In this document: one piece after another, positions 26,672-43,231 of the stretch
Position numbering within the stretch: the first letter of the stretch is position 1
How the letters are laid out: each line of letters opens with the position of its first letter
Source: Thiotrichaceae bacterium
Lineage (GTDB): Bacteria > Pseudomonadota > Gammaproteobacteria > Thiotrichales > Thiotrichaceae
Length of the DNA stretch: 43,231 nt
Direction: 5' to 3'
Assembly (NCBI GenBank): GCA_026991755.1
Contig: JALXAX010000158.1
Coordinates: forward strand, 1-43,231
Made by a program: the position numbers and the translations under genes
The notes under the pieces: model-generated
What the model was told of the DNA's origin: nothing
Databases searched by the model: none
Seen by the model: the letters and a program-made list of their open reading frames with translations, nothing else

Positions 26672-26798
26672 TAACCTCTTTCATAAGTTCCCGTCTACAA
26701 AAGACAAGGTTTGTTCTCTCTGCTATTCTCTTCAACGGAGAGCCTGATTCCAATCAAGCTAAACTCAGCCCTAATCAGAACAATAAGCGGAAATGACA

Positions 26799-27656
26799 AT
26801 GAAAAAAACACTATCTGTTGCCACACTTACCTTACCCTTAACGTTGCTCTTAAGCATCAGTACTCATTTATGTGCTGAAAACGCTCAAACACCTGTTGAG
26901 CAAGGCCATTTCCCTACGGCTAACGCTGATAAACCTGTGCAAGCTCCCACTACAAACAACCCTTCATTAACGATACCGACACAAGCACAACAGCCAAGTG
27001 CTAATAAAACTACCGCTGCTTATTTAGGCATGGGAGTAGATTTACTTCCGCAATCGGTTGTTGCGCAAATGCCTGCTGGTGTTTCTACAGGAGAAGGGAT
27101 TTTAATTACCCGTTTTGCAGATGACTCTCCTGCCAAGAAAAGCGGTTTACGCGCTTATGACATCCTCTTATCTTATGACAACAACAAACTGGTTCATCCT
27201 AAGCAATTTATTGACCTTGTACATAAAGACCAACCAGGACGACAAGTGACTCTGAAGGTATTGCGAAACGGGAAAGTAACCGATCACCTAGTTACATTAG
27301 GCTCTCAAGCTATCCCGCAAATACCTGACGGGCTTACTATTAAAGCCATAGACAAAAGCCACTTCATCGCAAGCATTCGTTTTAAGGATGCCCGTGGACA
27401 ACAACAGTTGAGAGAATACAAAGGCACACGTGAGCAGATTTATATGCAAGCGCTTAATGCCAGAGACCTACCGCAAAAAGAAAAGCAGCAAATTCTTTAC
27501 TCGGCAGGTGGCACTAAAAATAACAAATCTAACGGTTGGGGTTCGTTTATGCCTTTTGGCAATAACAAAAATGGCAGTTCTTTCTTCCCATTTGGAAATA
27601 AAAATAACGGCAATAGTAATAATTCTTGGGGATCATTCTTTCCATTTAATCGCTAG
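26799..27656 (+). CDS. Exported PDZ-domain protein with Asn/Gly-rich tail
   Basis: About 285 residues. A Sec signal (KKTLSVATLTLPLTLLLSIS...LCA) is followed by a Pro/Thr/Gln linker (about 28-75), one PDZ domain (about 75-165: AYLGMGVDLL, GILITRFADDSPAKKSGLRAYD, PGRQVTLKVLRNGK) as in HtrA-like chaperones, a region with KEKQQILY, and a tail of three similar units WGSFMPFG, SSFFPFG and WGSFFPFN separated by Asn/Lys/Gly. No protease domain is present. The function is unknown; the PDZ part suggests binding of exposed peptide ends in the periplasm. I prefer ATG 26799 (GGAA six bases upstream) to 26793. The TAG stop is part of the CTAGTACATC repeat. Confidence 0.7.
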   Translation: MKKTLSVATLTLPLTLLLSISTHLCAENAQTPVEQGHFPTANADKPVQAPTTNNPSLTIPTQAQQPSANKTTAAYLGMGVDLLPQSVVAQMPAGVSTGEGILITRFADDSPAKKSGLRAYDILLSYDNNKLVHPKQFIDLVHKDQPGRQVTLKVLRNGKVTDHLVTLGSQAIPQIPDGLTIKAIDKSHFIASIRFKDARGQQQLREYKGTREQIYMQALNARDLPQKEKQQILYSAGGTKNNKSNGWGSFMPFGNNKNGSSFFPFGNKNNGNSNNSWGSFFPFNR

Positions 27657-34798: not shown

Positions 34799-34843
34799 TC
34801 CCTTTAAATCTCCCCAACTACAGCTATGACACAAGGACTTGCT

Positions 34844-35788
34844 ATGCAAAAAAAATCTAACTCTCTGTTATTCTCAGTAGTTACTGTAATAGTAATCTCC
34901 TTATCCACCTCATCTTGTAGTCGTATTCCCAAAGTGACCAAGTCAGCCAGTTTTCGGAGTATGAAATCAGGTCTTGTTGGTATGAAAAATACAGTAGTTA
35001 GAGCAACGCCAAAACTATTCAAACGAAAAAAAACTACCACTCCCGTTGCATTACCTCTAAAAGGCTACCCTACCAGGCTTTCTCGCAATACACGTGTACA
35101 CAACACACGATCAGTTAAAAAATCACGCTATCCTGTTGCTTTACCCCTTAGAAGAAACAATTCTGCACGTACTTGCCCTGTTCCTAATAATCGTAATCGC
35201 GTGGTATTAGCCCAAAGAAAAACGCCTAGGTTTGTTACTCCTGTCCGCAGAGCAAATAACAATACTCAGCAAAGAACAGCATCAAACAACACTGTGCAAA
35301 GTATGAGAGTCTCACATCCAGCAGTTTCTTATCAACAACCTCAAGCGCAGCAACGACCTCAACAACAGCCACAAGCTCGTACAATACCGCAAAATCCAGT
35401 TCCTCAATTAAATCCACAACAAGCCAATCAACAATTATTCAATTTAGCTAAAAATGCCAACTCGGCACAAATAAACCAACTACTCAATCAAGGTGCGAAT
35501 GTAAATGCATCTAATGCTAGTGGAGAAACAGCATTACATTCAGCCGCCTCAACAGGCAATATCAGTGCGGCTCAAGCCTTATTACAACGTGGAGCAAATG
35601 TAAATGCTCGTACGGTACGTGGCTGGACTCCACTACACACCGCTGCACGCTTTGGCAGAAGCAATCTAGTGGCCTTGCTTCTTCGCAACGGCGCCCAGCC
35701 AAATACCCAAAATATAGATGGTAAAACACCAATGCAGCTTGCCAGGCAAGCCAATCAACATAATATTGTAGCGCAGCTACAACGCTAA
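34844..35788 (+). CDS. Exported ankyrin-repeat protein with basic and Pro/Gln-rich linker
   Basis: About 314 residues. The N-terminal hydrophobic signal SLLFSVVTVIVISLSTSSC could end as a signal peptide or at Cys; the residue three before the Cys is not Leu, so lipoprotein processing is doubtful. A basic linker (about 30-135) contains two similar units around PVALPLKG and PVALPLRR, then a Pro/Gln/Asn-rich stretch (about 150-200). About four ankyrin repeats close the protein (QINQLLNQGANVNASNASGE in part, TALHSAASTGNISAAQALL, GWTPLHTAARFGRSNLVALL). ATG 34844 has AAGGA six bases upstream, better than 34826. It is a different protein from the ankyrin gene at 4556. Confidence 0.75.
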   Translation: MQKKSNSLLFSVVTVIVISLSTSSCSRIPKVTKSASFRSMKSGLVGMKNTVVRATPKLFKRKKTTTPVALPLKGYPTRLSRNTRVHNTRSVKKSRYPVALPLRRNNSARTCPVPNNRNRVVLAQRKTPRFVTPVRRANNNTQQRTASNNTVQSMRVSHPAVSYQQPQAQQRPQQQPQARTIPQNPVPQLNPQQANQQLFNLAKNANSAQINQLLNQGANVNASNASGETALHSAASTGNISAAQALLQRGANVNARTVRGWTPLHTAARFGRSNLVALLLRNGAQPNTQNIDGKTPMQLARQANQHNIVAQLQR

Positions 35789-39712: not shown

Positions 39713-41572
39713 ATGCCTGAATACCGCTCTAGAACAACAACACATGGTCGCAATATGGCTGGCGCACGCGCCTTATGGCGTGCTACGGGCATGAAAGATG
39801 GGGATTTTGACAAACCAATTATTGCTATCGCCAACTCCTTTACACAGTTTGTCCCTGGCCATGTACACCTTAAAGATTTAGGTCAAATGGTAGCACGCGA
39901 AATCGAAAAATCAGGTGCTATCGCCAAAGAATTCAACACCATTGCGGTGGATGATGGTATAGCCATGGGACATGACGGCATGCTCTATAGCCTACCCTCC
40001 AGAGAGATCATCTCAGACTCTGTTGAATACATGGTCAATGCACACTGTGCTGATGCACTTATCTGTATCTCTAACTGCGACAAAATCACACCAGGTATGT
40101 TAAATGCTGCAATGCGTTTAAATATTCCTACCATCTTCATTTCTGGCGGGCCAATGGAATCGGGGAAAAGCGTAATTCAAGGTGTTGAGGTAAAACTTGA
40201 TCTTGTGGATGCGATGGTTTCAGCCGCAGATGACAATGAAACAGATGAAGATGTATTAGAGATGGAGCGATCAGCTTGTCCGACTTGCGGTTCCTGCTCA
40301 GGCATGTTCACAGCCAACTCAATGAATTGTCTAACTGAAGCATTGGGCTTAGCTCTGCCTGGTAATGGCTCGTTACTCGCTACTCACGCAGACCGCAAAG
40401 AACTTTTTCTGGAAGCGGCACGCCATATTGTCACACTCACCAAACGCTATTATGAAGAGGATGATGAAACGGCACTACCTCGTTCTATCGCAAATTTTAA
40501 GGCCTTCCAAAATGCAATGACGTTAGATATCTGCATGGGTGGGTCGACCAATACCGTATTACACCTACTAGCAGCAGCTGAAGAAGGAAATATTGGTTTT
40601 AATTTGGATCATATTAATGAATTATCATTAATTACACCCAACCTTAGTAAAGTAGCGCCCGCAACTCAGCTATACCACATGGAAGATGTGCATAGAGCAG
40701 GTGGCGTGATGGCCTTATTGGGTGAGCTGGATAAAGCTGAACTTATCAACCGTGACTGTTATACCGTACACACAAAAACAATGGGAGATGCACTTGAGCA
40801 ATGGGATATTAATCGTAATCCTTCCGAAGAAGTACAAACCTTTTTCTCAGCAGGCCCTGGTAATGTAAGAACAGTAGAAGCTTTTAGTCAAGAAAAACGC
40901 TGGCCAAGCCTAGATCTGGATCGTGAAAGTGGCTGTATTAGAGATTATGAGCACGCCTACTCCAAAGACGGTGGACTAGCCGTACTATACGGAAATATCG
41001 CACTCGACGGTTGTATTGTAAAAACAGCTGGCGTGGATGAAAGCATTCTTGTTTTCAGTGGTAAAGCAAGAATTTTTGAATCACAAGATAGCGCAGTTGC
41101 TGCTATTTTAGGCGATAACATACAAGAAGGTGATGTTGTTATTATTCGCTACGAAGGCCCCCGTGGTGGTCCTGGTATGCAGGAAATGCTCTACCCTACC
41201 AGTTACTTAAAATCCAAAGGGTTAGGAAAAGCTTGTGCACTGATCACCGATGGTCGATTCTCTGGTGGCACTTCTGGCTTATCGATAGGCCACGCATCAC
41301 CTGAAGCCGCTGAAGGTGGCAATATTGCGTTGGTCAATGAAGGCGACACCATTGATATCAATATCCCCAAGCGCACCATTAACGTTCGTATTGATACTAC
41401 AGAAATGGATAGCCGACGTGAAGAGATGAATGCAAAAGGTGAAAATGGCTGGAAGCCTGTCGAAATACGCAAACGCAATGTAACACCCGCACTTAGAGCC
41501 TATGCTGCGATGTCTACCTCAGCATCACGCGGTGCGGTACGGGATGTTTCGCAATTAGAAAAATCTAAATAG
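39713..41572 (+). CDS. ilvD: Dihydroxy-acid dehydratase
   Basis: A 619-residue iron-sulfur enzyme of branched-chain amino acid synthesis, turning 2,3-dihydroxy-isovalerate or -methylvalerate into the 2-oxo acid. Cluster and active-site residues are in place: Cys122 and Lys124 in [10 protein letters not shown], Cys195 in [14 protein letters not shown], as in E. coli IlvD. The C-terminal end has [14 protein letters not shown]. The ribosome site AGGAAG is six bases before the ATG. It stands alone; ilvC, ilvA and other pathway genes are not in the window. Confidence 0.97.
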
Positions 41573-41647
41573 TTACTTGCTATCAGAACCTAGAAGCTAT
41601 TTAGCTCAGGCCAGTCAGCGAGTAGCTAAATGGATAGATAAGTGACA

Positions 41648-41962
41648 AGTACATCAACCAGCTCAAAATGTCGGTCTCAGTTATCCTGTCTGCCTTCATG
41701 GCTACGACTGCATGGATGCAGGAGGTAGGGCAATGCAGGAGCAACTTGCCGAGGCGCACTTTGCAGGGAATGGTTGTTCCCTTCACAAAAAGTGCAACAA
41801 CGGCATGGAGGCAGACAGGACAACCCTTTGGGCGCATTTGTGAGGCTCTGCCTCTGCGTTACAGTGCTTGGCAAGGACGCTGCCATTGCCTGCGCACTGT
41901 GCCTTGATGCAAAGCCTCACAAAAGCGCTGAGACCGACATTTTGGACTGGTTGATGTACTAG
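41648..41962. repeat. CTAGTACATC-family element with a long GC-rich centre (315 bp)
   Basis: Its ends AGTACATCAACCAGCTC and CTGGTTGATGTACTAG and the adjoining segments are the same as those of 16440-16570, in opposite orientation. The centre adds about 190 GC-rich bases with their own partial palindromes (CTGCATGGATGCAG, GGCAATGCAGG). Short open frames run through it on both strands, but none resembles a protein. Confidence 0.8.
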
Positions 41963-42094
41963 TTATTCCTTTTCTTTACAATCTGGACAGTAATATATTG
42001 GATCTGCTCGCAAGATATACTTTTTGATAAAGCCTCGGTGAAGACGCTTTATTTTATAACTACCACAAGAATGGCATCTATTCCGTGAACTCAT
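41963..42094 (-). CDS. 43-residue putative zinc-ribbon protein
   Basis: ATG at 42094, stop at 41963. The protein begins MSSRNRCHSCGSYKIKRLHR and ends YYCPDCKEKE: two CxxC pairs (Cys7/Cys10 and Cys36/Cys39) 25 residues apart, the layout of a zinc ribbon, with a basic middle (IKRLHRGFIKKYILR). A stretch AGGGGTAGGTC just upstream is a plausible ribosome site. The spacing of the Cys pairs and the fitting start support a real gene despite its size. I know no function; small zinc ribbons often bind nucleic acid or partner proteins. The gene ends one base from a CTAGTACATC repeat, which may have shortened it. It lies downstream of the carbonic anhydrase gene on the same strand. Confidence 0.6.
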   Translation of the reverse strand: MSSRNRCHSCGSYKIKRLHRGFIKKYILRADPIYYCPDCKEKE

Positions 42095-42097
42095 GAC

Positions 42098-42131
42098 CTA
42101 CCCCTAATTTGTTAATAAAACAATGGGGTAG
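42098..42131 (-). promoter_or_regulatory. Hairpin covering the ribosome site of the zinc-ribbon gene
   Basis: On the minus strand CTACCCC (42125-42131) is complementary to GGGGTAG (42098-42104), with further pairing between TTGTT and AACAA inside. The GGGGTAG arm is the ribosome binding region of the 43-residue gene, so folding would hide it. It could also serve as a weak end-of-transcript hairpin for the gene upstream. Confidence 0.5.
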
Positions 42132-42196
42132 ATCATATCAATAATAAAGAACCTGTTCAATAATTAAGCTTAATGACTTATAAACTAACCGAATGC

Positions 42197-42955
42197 TTAC
42201 TCAAGAACCTTCCGTGCGTGAAGAGGCTGAGTAGGACGATTATTAGGGTGCTTTAAAGCAGCTTGAAGTATTTGTATTTGCTGTTGCGAAACCGTCATTG
42301 GTGTTTGCATGACAATCCAACGAACCCCTTCACTACAAGGTGGCGTTGTTAAAGAACCATTAAAACGGTAATAGTTTGTGAAGCTAGTGTCAGCCTCAAT
42401 ACTCTTAAGGGCTTTTGCCGATAAACGCACTGCCTCACCTTTTTGGCTAGGCAGGTTCTCCCATAAGCGCGTAAGCGTTGCATCTTCTTTCCCAGGGATA
42501 AACATCATCGCCAACACGGCTAAATTACCTTTATCATCTTTATGCACAAATTGAGCTTCTAAAGGAAAGTGCTTACCATTAACGGTATTCTCACTAGGGG
42601 TATGAAAATTAAACTGTTGCAAATCATACTCAACACCGTCAAGTGTGATACTCCCACCACTACGCATATCAACCTGAATACTATGACCTGTATGCTTAAT
42701 CTGCTCAGCAACTAACATACTGTAATTAAGCTTGATAGGCTCTTGCTTAAAATCAATGGTCTCTTTAGGATCAATGTTAATGGGTGATTGATTCTGGCCT
42801 TTACTACACATCACGTTATTAGTGGACAATTCACCCCAGTGCTCTGGGCCAGATTTTCCTTCATACGTCCATTCAGTGGTAGATTGTTCTGCATAAGCAG
42901 AGGTAATAGCTGTCAGCGCTACAGCACTAATCCATGTGATGACTGTCTTTTTCAT
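42197..42955 (-). CDS. Alpha-carbonic anhydrase homologue with altered zinc ligands
   Basis: 252 residues with a Sec signal (1-22, ending SAYA), so periplasmic. It aligns along its length with bacterial alpha-carbonic anhydrases: GPEHWGEL, QSPINID, the proton-shuttle His91 in HTGHSIQV, SENTVNGKHFPLEAQ, the SLTTPPCSEGVRW segment with Thr203, and likely disulfide Cys50-Cys207. Normal enzymes bind zinc by three His in QFHFH and EAHFVH. Here the codons read Asn116 (AAT) in QFNFH, His118 (CAT) and Gln135 (CAA) in EAQFVH, so two of three ligands are carboxamides. It may be a low-activity enzyme, a different metal site, or a non-catalytic relative. It is a single gene with weak ribosome signal (TAGG). 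Confidence 0.88.
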   Translation of the reverse strand: MKKTVITWISAVALTAITSAYAEQSTTEWTYEGKSGPEHWGELSTNNVMCSKGQNQSPINIDPKETIDFKQEPIKLNYSMLVAEQIKHTGHSIQVDMRSGGSITLDGVEYDLQQFNFHTPSENTVNGKHFPLEAQFVHKDDKGNLAVLAMMFIPGKEDATLTRLWENLPSQKGEAVRLSAKALKSIEADTSFTNYYRFNGSLTTPPCSEGVRWIVMQTPMTVSQQQIQILQAALKHPNNRPTQPLHARKVLE

Positions 42956-43093
42956 AATAGTTGTAGACCTATTTTAGTAATGTTGATAATTGAGTAGATA
43001 GCAATCAGTAAGCCCTTGTTGACTGCTGATAAAGCATGGTAATAAGCTTTCTAACATTTTACAAATCGTAATCTATCACAAATAGTAGTAGTT

Positions 43094-43231
43094 TTTTAAG
43101 GAATCTCTGATCAAGTAAGCTAAATTTCCAGATATTGTTCATATGCAAAATTTTTAAAAAATCTTTTGAAATATCGAGTGTTTTTTGAGCAATTTGTCAT
43201 GTGTTTCATCCTTTTTTATCTAAAATCTGGG
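43094..43231. repeat. Start of a TTAAGG-family repeat running out of the window
   Basis: TTTAAGGAATCTCTGATCAAG begins at about 43094; the following bases are AT-rich, with no gene. The opposite end is beyond the window. Bases 42956-43093 before it hold the upstream region of the carbonic anhydrase gene, with no promoter I can defend. Confidence 0.5.

Follow-up and report, generated by a model that had tools for sequence, protein, structure and literature searches.

A bacterial alpha-carbonic anhydrase with asparagine and glutamine at two of the three zinc-ligand positions

Catalytic alpha-carbonic anhydrases (CAs) hold zinc through three histidines at positions 94, 96 and 119 (human CA II numbering) and carry His64, Glu106 and Thr199 together with second-shell Gln92 and Glu117, which are the hydrogen-bond acceptors for His94 and His119 in the normal enzyme. 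Engineered zinc-site variants of human CA II, in which histidine is replaced by Asn, Gln or Asp, are single, laboratory-made changes. In the carboxamide variants the NH2 group turns to the second shell and the oxygen toward the metal, and even one such change lowers zinc affinity by several orders of magnitude.

Natural departures from the three-histidine site have been described outside bacteria. Animal CA-related proteins (CARPs) are inactive through loss of at least one of these histidines (PMC5437132, PMC9032886), and TgCA_RP of Toxoplasma, which reads Phe/His/Gln, has no activity and did not regain it when His was put back (PMC5437132). The eta-CA of Plasmodium falciparum (PfCA) is active, with His-His-Gln coordination taken from a homology model (PMC6968676), and Metal3D gives H119N (0.23) and H119Q (0.38) the lowest zinc probabilities among its human CA II mutants (PMC10175565).

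Here, we analyse an alpha-CA gene in a 43,231-nucleotide stretch of DNA from a Thiotrichaceae bacterium (the window, which is the whole of contig C158), compare its Asn/His/Gln ligand set with those of its relatives, and weigh what the altered site might do.

The gene and its altered ligand set

The gene lies on the minus strand at 42197..42955, and its open reading frame encodes 252 amino acids plus a stop from an ATG start codon. A profile search matched residues 36-251 of the product (hereafter the window CA) to positions 2-251 of the 254 in PF00194 (E 6.3e-43), and the nearest solved structures by sequence are the bacterial alpha-CAs 6im0, 8w7x and 4c3t. An AlphaFold model built from 6 sequences (mean pLDDT 70.6, below 50 over residues 1-49), which is evidence for the fold only, matched bacterial alpha-CAs with Z scores of 23-24 (up to 23.9). 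Profile and fold together thus place the protein in the alpha-CA family; NCBIfam assigned it to no family. By eye, residues 1-22 (42890..42955, minus strand) resemble a signal peptide.

The first-pass annotation had proposed that two zinc-ligand histidines are replaced by carboxamides, and the alignment columns and codons both agree. On the minus strand, Asn116 (AAT, 42608..42610) occupies position 94 and Gln135 (CAA, 42551..42553) position 119, where three-histidine relatives have His, while His118 (CAT, 42602..42604) is the retained ligand at position 96; these position numbers come from a mapping made in this analysis. A residue check also recovered the remaining catalytic residues named in that annotation, all on the minus strand: the proton shuttle His91 (position 64, 42683..42685), Glu122 (position 106, 42590..42592) and Thr203 (position 199, 42347..42349), as well as the conserved pair Cys50 (42806..42808) and Cys207 (42335..42337). 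Gln114, Glu133 and Trp213 (positions 92, 117 and 209) are retained too, as are His122, Thr200 and Val207 in human CA II numbering.

The protein therefore has the catalytic and second-shell residues of an active alpha-CA without the full set of histidines. It shares the fold, pocket, Cys pair and secreted-looking N-terminus of the enzymes from Persephonella marina (6im0) and Thermovibrio ammonificans (4c3t), but two of their three ligand histidines are Asn and Gln. Like animal CARPs, vaccinia D8 (structures of which are among the fold matches of the model) and TgCA_RP, it has an alpha-CA fold that lacks at least one ligand His, and in that respect resembles a CARP; unlike CARPs, it is bacterial, both replacements are carboxamides and His64 is kept. 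In TgCA_RP the same two histidines are missing and position 119 is likewise Gln (PMC5437132), but its position 94 is Phe and the protein was inactive in an assay. PfCA shares Gln at 119 and His at 96 (PMC5437132, PMC6968676) but has His at 94 and long insertions, so with Asn at 94 the window CA does not have the eta-CA ligand set. The engineered human CA II variants carry the same kind of change at the same positions, and three of their structures (1cvc, 1cvh, 4jsw) are among the fold matches; theirs are single changes, while this is a natural double one.

The genome spans 3.66 Mb in 207 contigs and is listed as 100% complete with a contamination value of 0.82. The first-pass annotation had asked for a second, normal CA. 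Among alpha and beta classes none was found, the window CA being the sole PF00194 match and PF00484 giving no match in this genome, but a gamma-CA-like protein that shares 60% identity with E. coli YrdA is encoded, and two DabA genes are present. The DabA genes (L212 and L213, G000:C102:1147-9492) lie on opposite strands within about 8.3 kb and point to DAB-type inorganic carbon uptake.

Relatives, recurrence and constraint

Among 63 genomes of the same bacterial family, 27 contained an alpha-CA. The 44 matches comprise 43 copies, a few of which end at contig ends, and one fragment that was left out. Written as one-letter codes for positions 94, 96 and 119, 27 of the 43 copies are HHH, and in the other 16 one or more ligand histidines are missing: three NHQ (the window CA included), one HHQ, one NHH, four DHQ, four SHQ, two DHE and one EHL. 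These 16 are spread over 15 genomes, 12 of which also encode an HHH copy; the exceptions are the genome of the window CA, G003 and G065 (58% complete). The closest relative of the window CA is L015, an HHH protein from the same genus that is 66-68% identical. The other two NHQ proteins, L036 and L024, come from two MAGs of a second genus; L023 is the NHH protein, and L038 is HHQ, the family member with the ligand set of PfCA.

In a tree of 45 rows (the 43 family copies and two from other families), from which the ligand and His64 columns had been removed, group I holds 17 rows, all HHH, and clade III holds 11 rows, all substituted (support 94/94). Group II, a label without clade support, takes in 17 rows, of which 12 are HHH and five substituted. 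At least five changes between HHH and loss are needed on this tree. The window CA pairs with L015 (100/95), and the other two NHQ proteins sit on a separate branch. A constraint forcing the three NHQ rows into one clade, a group named after the substitutions had been seen (as was the other group constrained, the window CA with clade III), was rejected (AU p 4e-50). Because of this, and because the window CA pairs with an HHH protein, the most likely history of Asn/His/Gln is two or more origins within this bacterial family; a return to HHH could in principle have happened, but would have required regaining both histidines. Relatives sharing Asn and Gln, for which the earlier annotation had called, thus occur in the family, although the nearest one is HHH.

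Two observations on individual relatives stand beside this picture. L019 (G017) is the reverse of the window CA, an HHH protein in which His64 has become Tyr and Gln92 Ala. In the second NHQ lineage, L060 (G033) and L114 (G064) have the same two genes 3' of the CA gene and on its strand; these are 96% and 87% identical between the two genomes and look DapA-like and BamC-like by eye.

Two surveys looked beyond the family. An exact DNA pattern for Phe-Asn-Phe-His-Thr-Pro-Ser-Glu, scanned over a collection of named genomes (84,980 by its description), hit 13 loci, four of which are alpha-CAs (L107, L114, L119 and L110); no CA frame was found at the other nine. L110, the sole PF00194 match of Micavibrio sp. 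UBA2638, reads Asn/His/Gln with codons AAT and CAA and retains His64. Because Asn was built into the search pattern, only the Gln of L110 at position 119 counts as unbiased evidence. A second tree, of 50 selected rows, places L110 on a long branch of uncertain position, separate from the starred group of 23 rows to which the window CA belongs. A protein pattern search in named genomes matched 19 stretches, none encoding a relative, and viral contigs gave three loci: L209 and L210, which are the same HHH protein, and L211, a 25% match.

The second survey used the clade III profile as query, which may favour clade III-like proteins, against 369 genomes drawn from the class, and matched in 83 of them. 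We examined all matches listed except the window CA's own and four short pieces, giving 91 frames; 87 show all three ligand positions, and the four broken or partial ones were left out. Ligand loss outside the family is rare in this class sample, as only four of the 87 frames are not HHH. L139 (G113, DHQ) and L167 (G356, Ala-His-Gln) belong to one genus whose third sampled genome carries an HHH copy (L137), and L195 (G261, Arg-Ile-Gln) and L196 (G132, Arg-Leu-Gln), from another family than the first pair, have lost even His96. Two alpha-CA copies, L200 (G240:C245) and L206 (G127:C1), are broken, with matches split over frames or across a stop; these look like decay, unlike the window CA. The residue that takes the place of His119 is mostly Gln, in 12 of the 15 family rows that lost it (Glu in two and Leu in one), in all four non-HHH class cases and in L110.

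Constraint was read from sites fixed in 28 HHH reference rows, with each HHH row omitted in turn and the ligand columns excluded. The window CA breaks 0 of 37 such sites, as do L036 and L038; L024, which is cut by a contig end, breaks 0 of 34, and L023 breaks one of 37. The ten core proteins of clade III break three to six each, and its outlier L027 one. Among the HHH rows themselves, 22 of 29 break none, the worst being L019 (5 of 42). Within the pocket, the three NHQ family proteins all retain His64, Gln92, Glu106, Glu117 and Thr199. Gln92 is also kept in the NHH protein and is Glu in the HHQ one, and Glu117, the second-shell neighbour of position 119, is retained in 16 of 16 substituted family rows. 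His64 divides the substituted proteins: it is kept in all six with Asn94 and/or Gln119 outside clade III and the class cases (five family rows and L110) but is missing from every one of the 11 clade III rows and from the four class-survey cases.

For the close NHQ pair L036/L024, NG86 gave dN 0.023 and dS 0.496 (ratio 0.046) and YN00 gave dN 0.028 and dS 0.372 (ratio 0.075), alongside ratios of 0.075-0.110 (NG86, three pairs) and 0.044-0.104 (YN00, two pairs) for HHH pairs of the family. The window CA's own dS is saturated and yields no ratio, so for this protein selection is inferred from its intact invariant sites. In a relative-rate test with L014 as outgroup it had 27 unique changes against 19 in L015 (chi2 1.39, not significant). 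The codons for Asn and Gln differ among other assemblies: AAC/CAG in L036, AAT/CAG in L024 and AAT/CAA in L110.

Sequencing error and a pseudogene were considered as candidates and judged unlikely: the residues recur with other codons, and no HHH-invariant site is broken. Decay or error is also disfavoured because the pocket is kept, 0 of 34-37 invariant sites are broken, and the NHQ pair has dN/dS of 0.05-0.08. The first-pass impression that the gene is not decaying therefore holds, from the window CA's own unbroken sites and from the constraint on the close NHQ pair elsewhere in the family. It had named histidines at both positions in close relatives, with no sign of selection on this copy, as what would overturn it; L015 indeed has both histidines, so only half of this applies.

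A ligand-less clade between PDZ genes

Clade III has gone further from the catalytic site. Position 94 is Asp, Ser or, in L027 only, Glu, with mostly Asp/Ser-His-Gln sets, and Gln92 is lost along with His64 in 11 of 11 rows. On either side of its CA genes, and on the same strand, is a gene for a PDZ protein (PF13180) that looks secreted. Both flanks are PDZ in nine of the ten core loci, from several genera of the family: five at L063:5222-7822, L064:6519-9118, L065:7462-10083, L066:2371-5055 and L067:4022-6609, with L255, L256, L257, L258 and L259 as further core loci. The tenth is L257, where the CA gene reaches the contig end and the single visible flank is PDZ. The outlier L027 has one PDZ neighbour. 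In G065 and G057 the upstream PDZ matches cross a stop codon at the level of the match.

No adjacent PDZ gene was found at 15 HHH, NHQ, NHH or HHQ loci examined, some of which are cut by contig ends; at one of these, L079, a PDZ gene lies 4.5 kb away. The PDZ profile matched in 61 of 63 family genomes at E 1e-6, and G002 has a strong match (7.5e-63) with no alpha-CA match at 69% completeness. Because PDZ proteins are this common and strong matches occur without an alpha-CA, presence alone is uninformative and only adjacency counts. In four clade III proteins (L029, L054, L077 and L020), most of the sequence N-terminal to the first Cys is missing; in other alpha-CAs this segment contains a conserved Trp-Tyr motif.

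Clade III and its PDZ neighbours look like a separate bacterial CA-related system, and on the tree the window CA is not part of it. The two have in common the protein family, the bacterial family, missing ligand histidines and the usual Gln at 119, but clade III has lost His64 and Gln92 and has PDZ neighbours, and the window CA falls outside it. Membership of the window CA in this cluster was tested and is not supported by the tree: grouping it with clade III gave p 0.018, and it pairs with L015.

Possible states of the metal site

We favour, at a probability of roughly 0.43, a selected, low-affinity or conditional CA with a weakened carboxamide metal site. On this view His/His/His would have given way to Asn/His/Gln once the lineage had separated from that of the sister protein L015, and the secreted-looking, enzyme-like protein would then have been maintained by selection. 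The NH2 groups of Asn and Gln could face second-shell Gln92 and Glu117 and their oxygens the metal; as the ligand histidines of the normal enzyme are hydrogen-bonded to these two residues, the carboxamides should be able to make the same bonds. Such a metal site would be weaker and faster-exchanging. The protein would then be active at high periplasmic levels of zinc or some other divalent metal, and turnover would still rely on His64, Thr199 and Glu106. The intact pocket, the recurrence and the purifying selection on one NHQ pair speak for this reading, as does the His-His-Gln coordination modelled for the active PfCA (PMC6968676). The replacement looks kept on purpose because it arose separately in other bacteria, and the fate of His64, kept throughout the carboxamide group and lost in clade III and the four class cases, suggests that something is still turned over there.

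Nearly as likely is a bacterial CA-related pseudoenzyme with a metal-free site; its retained fold and pocket would instead bind a protein partner or a small molecule, for instance an anion. Two of the three ligands are gone, and as single changes already cost orders of magnitude in affinity, two together might leave the site empty; a kept pocket is no proof of catalysis. Such loss inactivates animal CARPs (PMC5437132, PMC9032886), and TgCA_RP, without His94 and His119 and with Gln at 119, is inactive (PMC5437132); together with the Metal3D values for H119N and H119Q (PMC10175565), this last case weighs against a weak-site enzyme. The same bacterial family holds a whole ligand-less clade tied to PDZ genes, and the cell has other carbon systems in its gamma-CA-like and DabA genes. 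Yet the window CA differs from the PDZ-linked clade in retaining His64 and Gln92 along with all the other sites examined that are invariant in HHH proteins, and no partner gene is visible beside it, its 5' side ending with the contig. The recurrent choice of Asn and Gln alone, both oxygen-capable metal ligands, would also suit a site re-tuned to another metal, in which two neutral oxygens and one His favour Fe(II), Mn(II) or Co(II), but we consider this improbable since the surrounding pocket is that of zinc enzymes.

A recent loss of function, with the ligands inactivated and decay yet to follow, seems less probable again. The HHH state of L015 means that the ligand change could be young, and the slight, non-significant excess of unique changes (27 against 19, chi2 1.39) leans the same way; against this, two separate ligand changes have come with no other invariant site broken, and the NHQ pair elsewhere has held the same state through dS of 0.37-0.50 under strong constraint. 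Error at both codons is the least credible of all: although the assembly consists of 207 contigs and the gene is close to the end of one, two errors would have had to strike exactly two ligand codons, and the same residues appear in other assemblies with other codons.

A broader reading, which we hold to be doubtful, is that Asn/His/Gln is a natural alpha-CA metal-ligand set with at least three bacterial origins (the lineage of the window CA, the second genus of its family and Micavibrio) and yields a functional enzyme whose metal site is weak, or different, by design. If true, Asn/His/Gln proteins would be intermediate between three-histidine enzymes and true CA-related proteins. We found neither a bacterial CA-related protein nor a natural Asn/His/Gln site in the open-licence literature, which is no proof of their absence. 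In one bacterial family, HHH enzymes coexist with variants carrying one or two carboxamides and with a ligand-less clade linked to PDZ genes, and such close natural controls would make it possible to trace how a textbook metal site weakens or is given up. A PF00194 match alone does not equal an active carbonic anhydrase.

The surroundings of the gene are partly in view. Its start is 276 bases from the contig end, which puts the 5' neighbour out of view; judged by eye, the product of the 3' neighbour (39713-41572) does not resemble a PDZ protein. Across 41500-43231, Rfam at gathering threshold gave no match and promoter- or terminator-like sites were in no excess over shuffles. Also 3' of the CA gene, a 319-bp stretch (41645-41963) bounded by two 36-nt inverted repeats (92% complementary) is possibly a small mobile element. 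Farther along the window, 26793-27656 (plus strand) encodes a PDZ protein (PF13180) that matches a profile of the clade III PDZ partners at 1e-51; G008 and G014 have matches to these partners about as strong, yet no alpha-CA match. An ankyrin-repeat protein with a lipoprotein-like N-terminus is encoded at 34826-35788 (plus strand), and relatives of it lie near two ligand-less CA loci (L062:1154-1930 and L065:5827-6525); ankyrin proteins may simply be common in these genomes.
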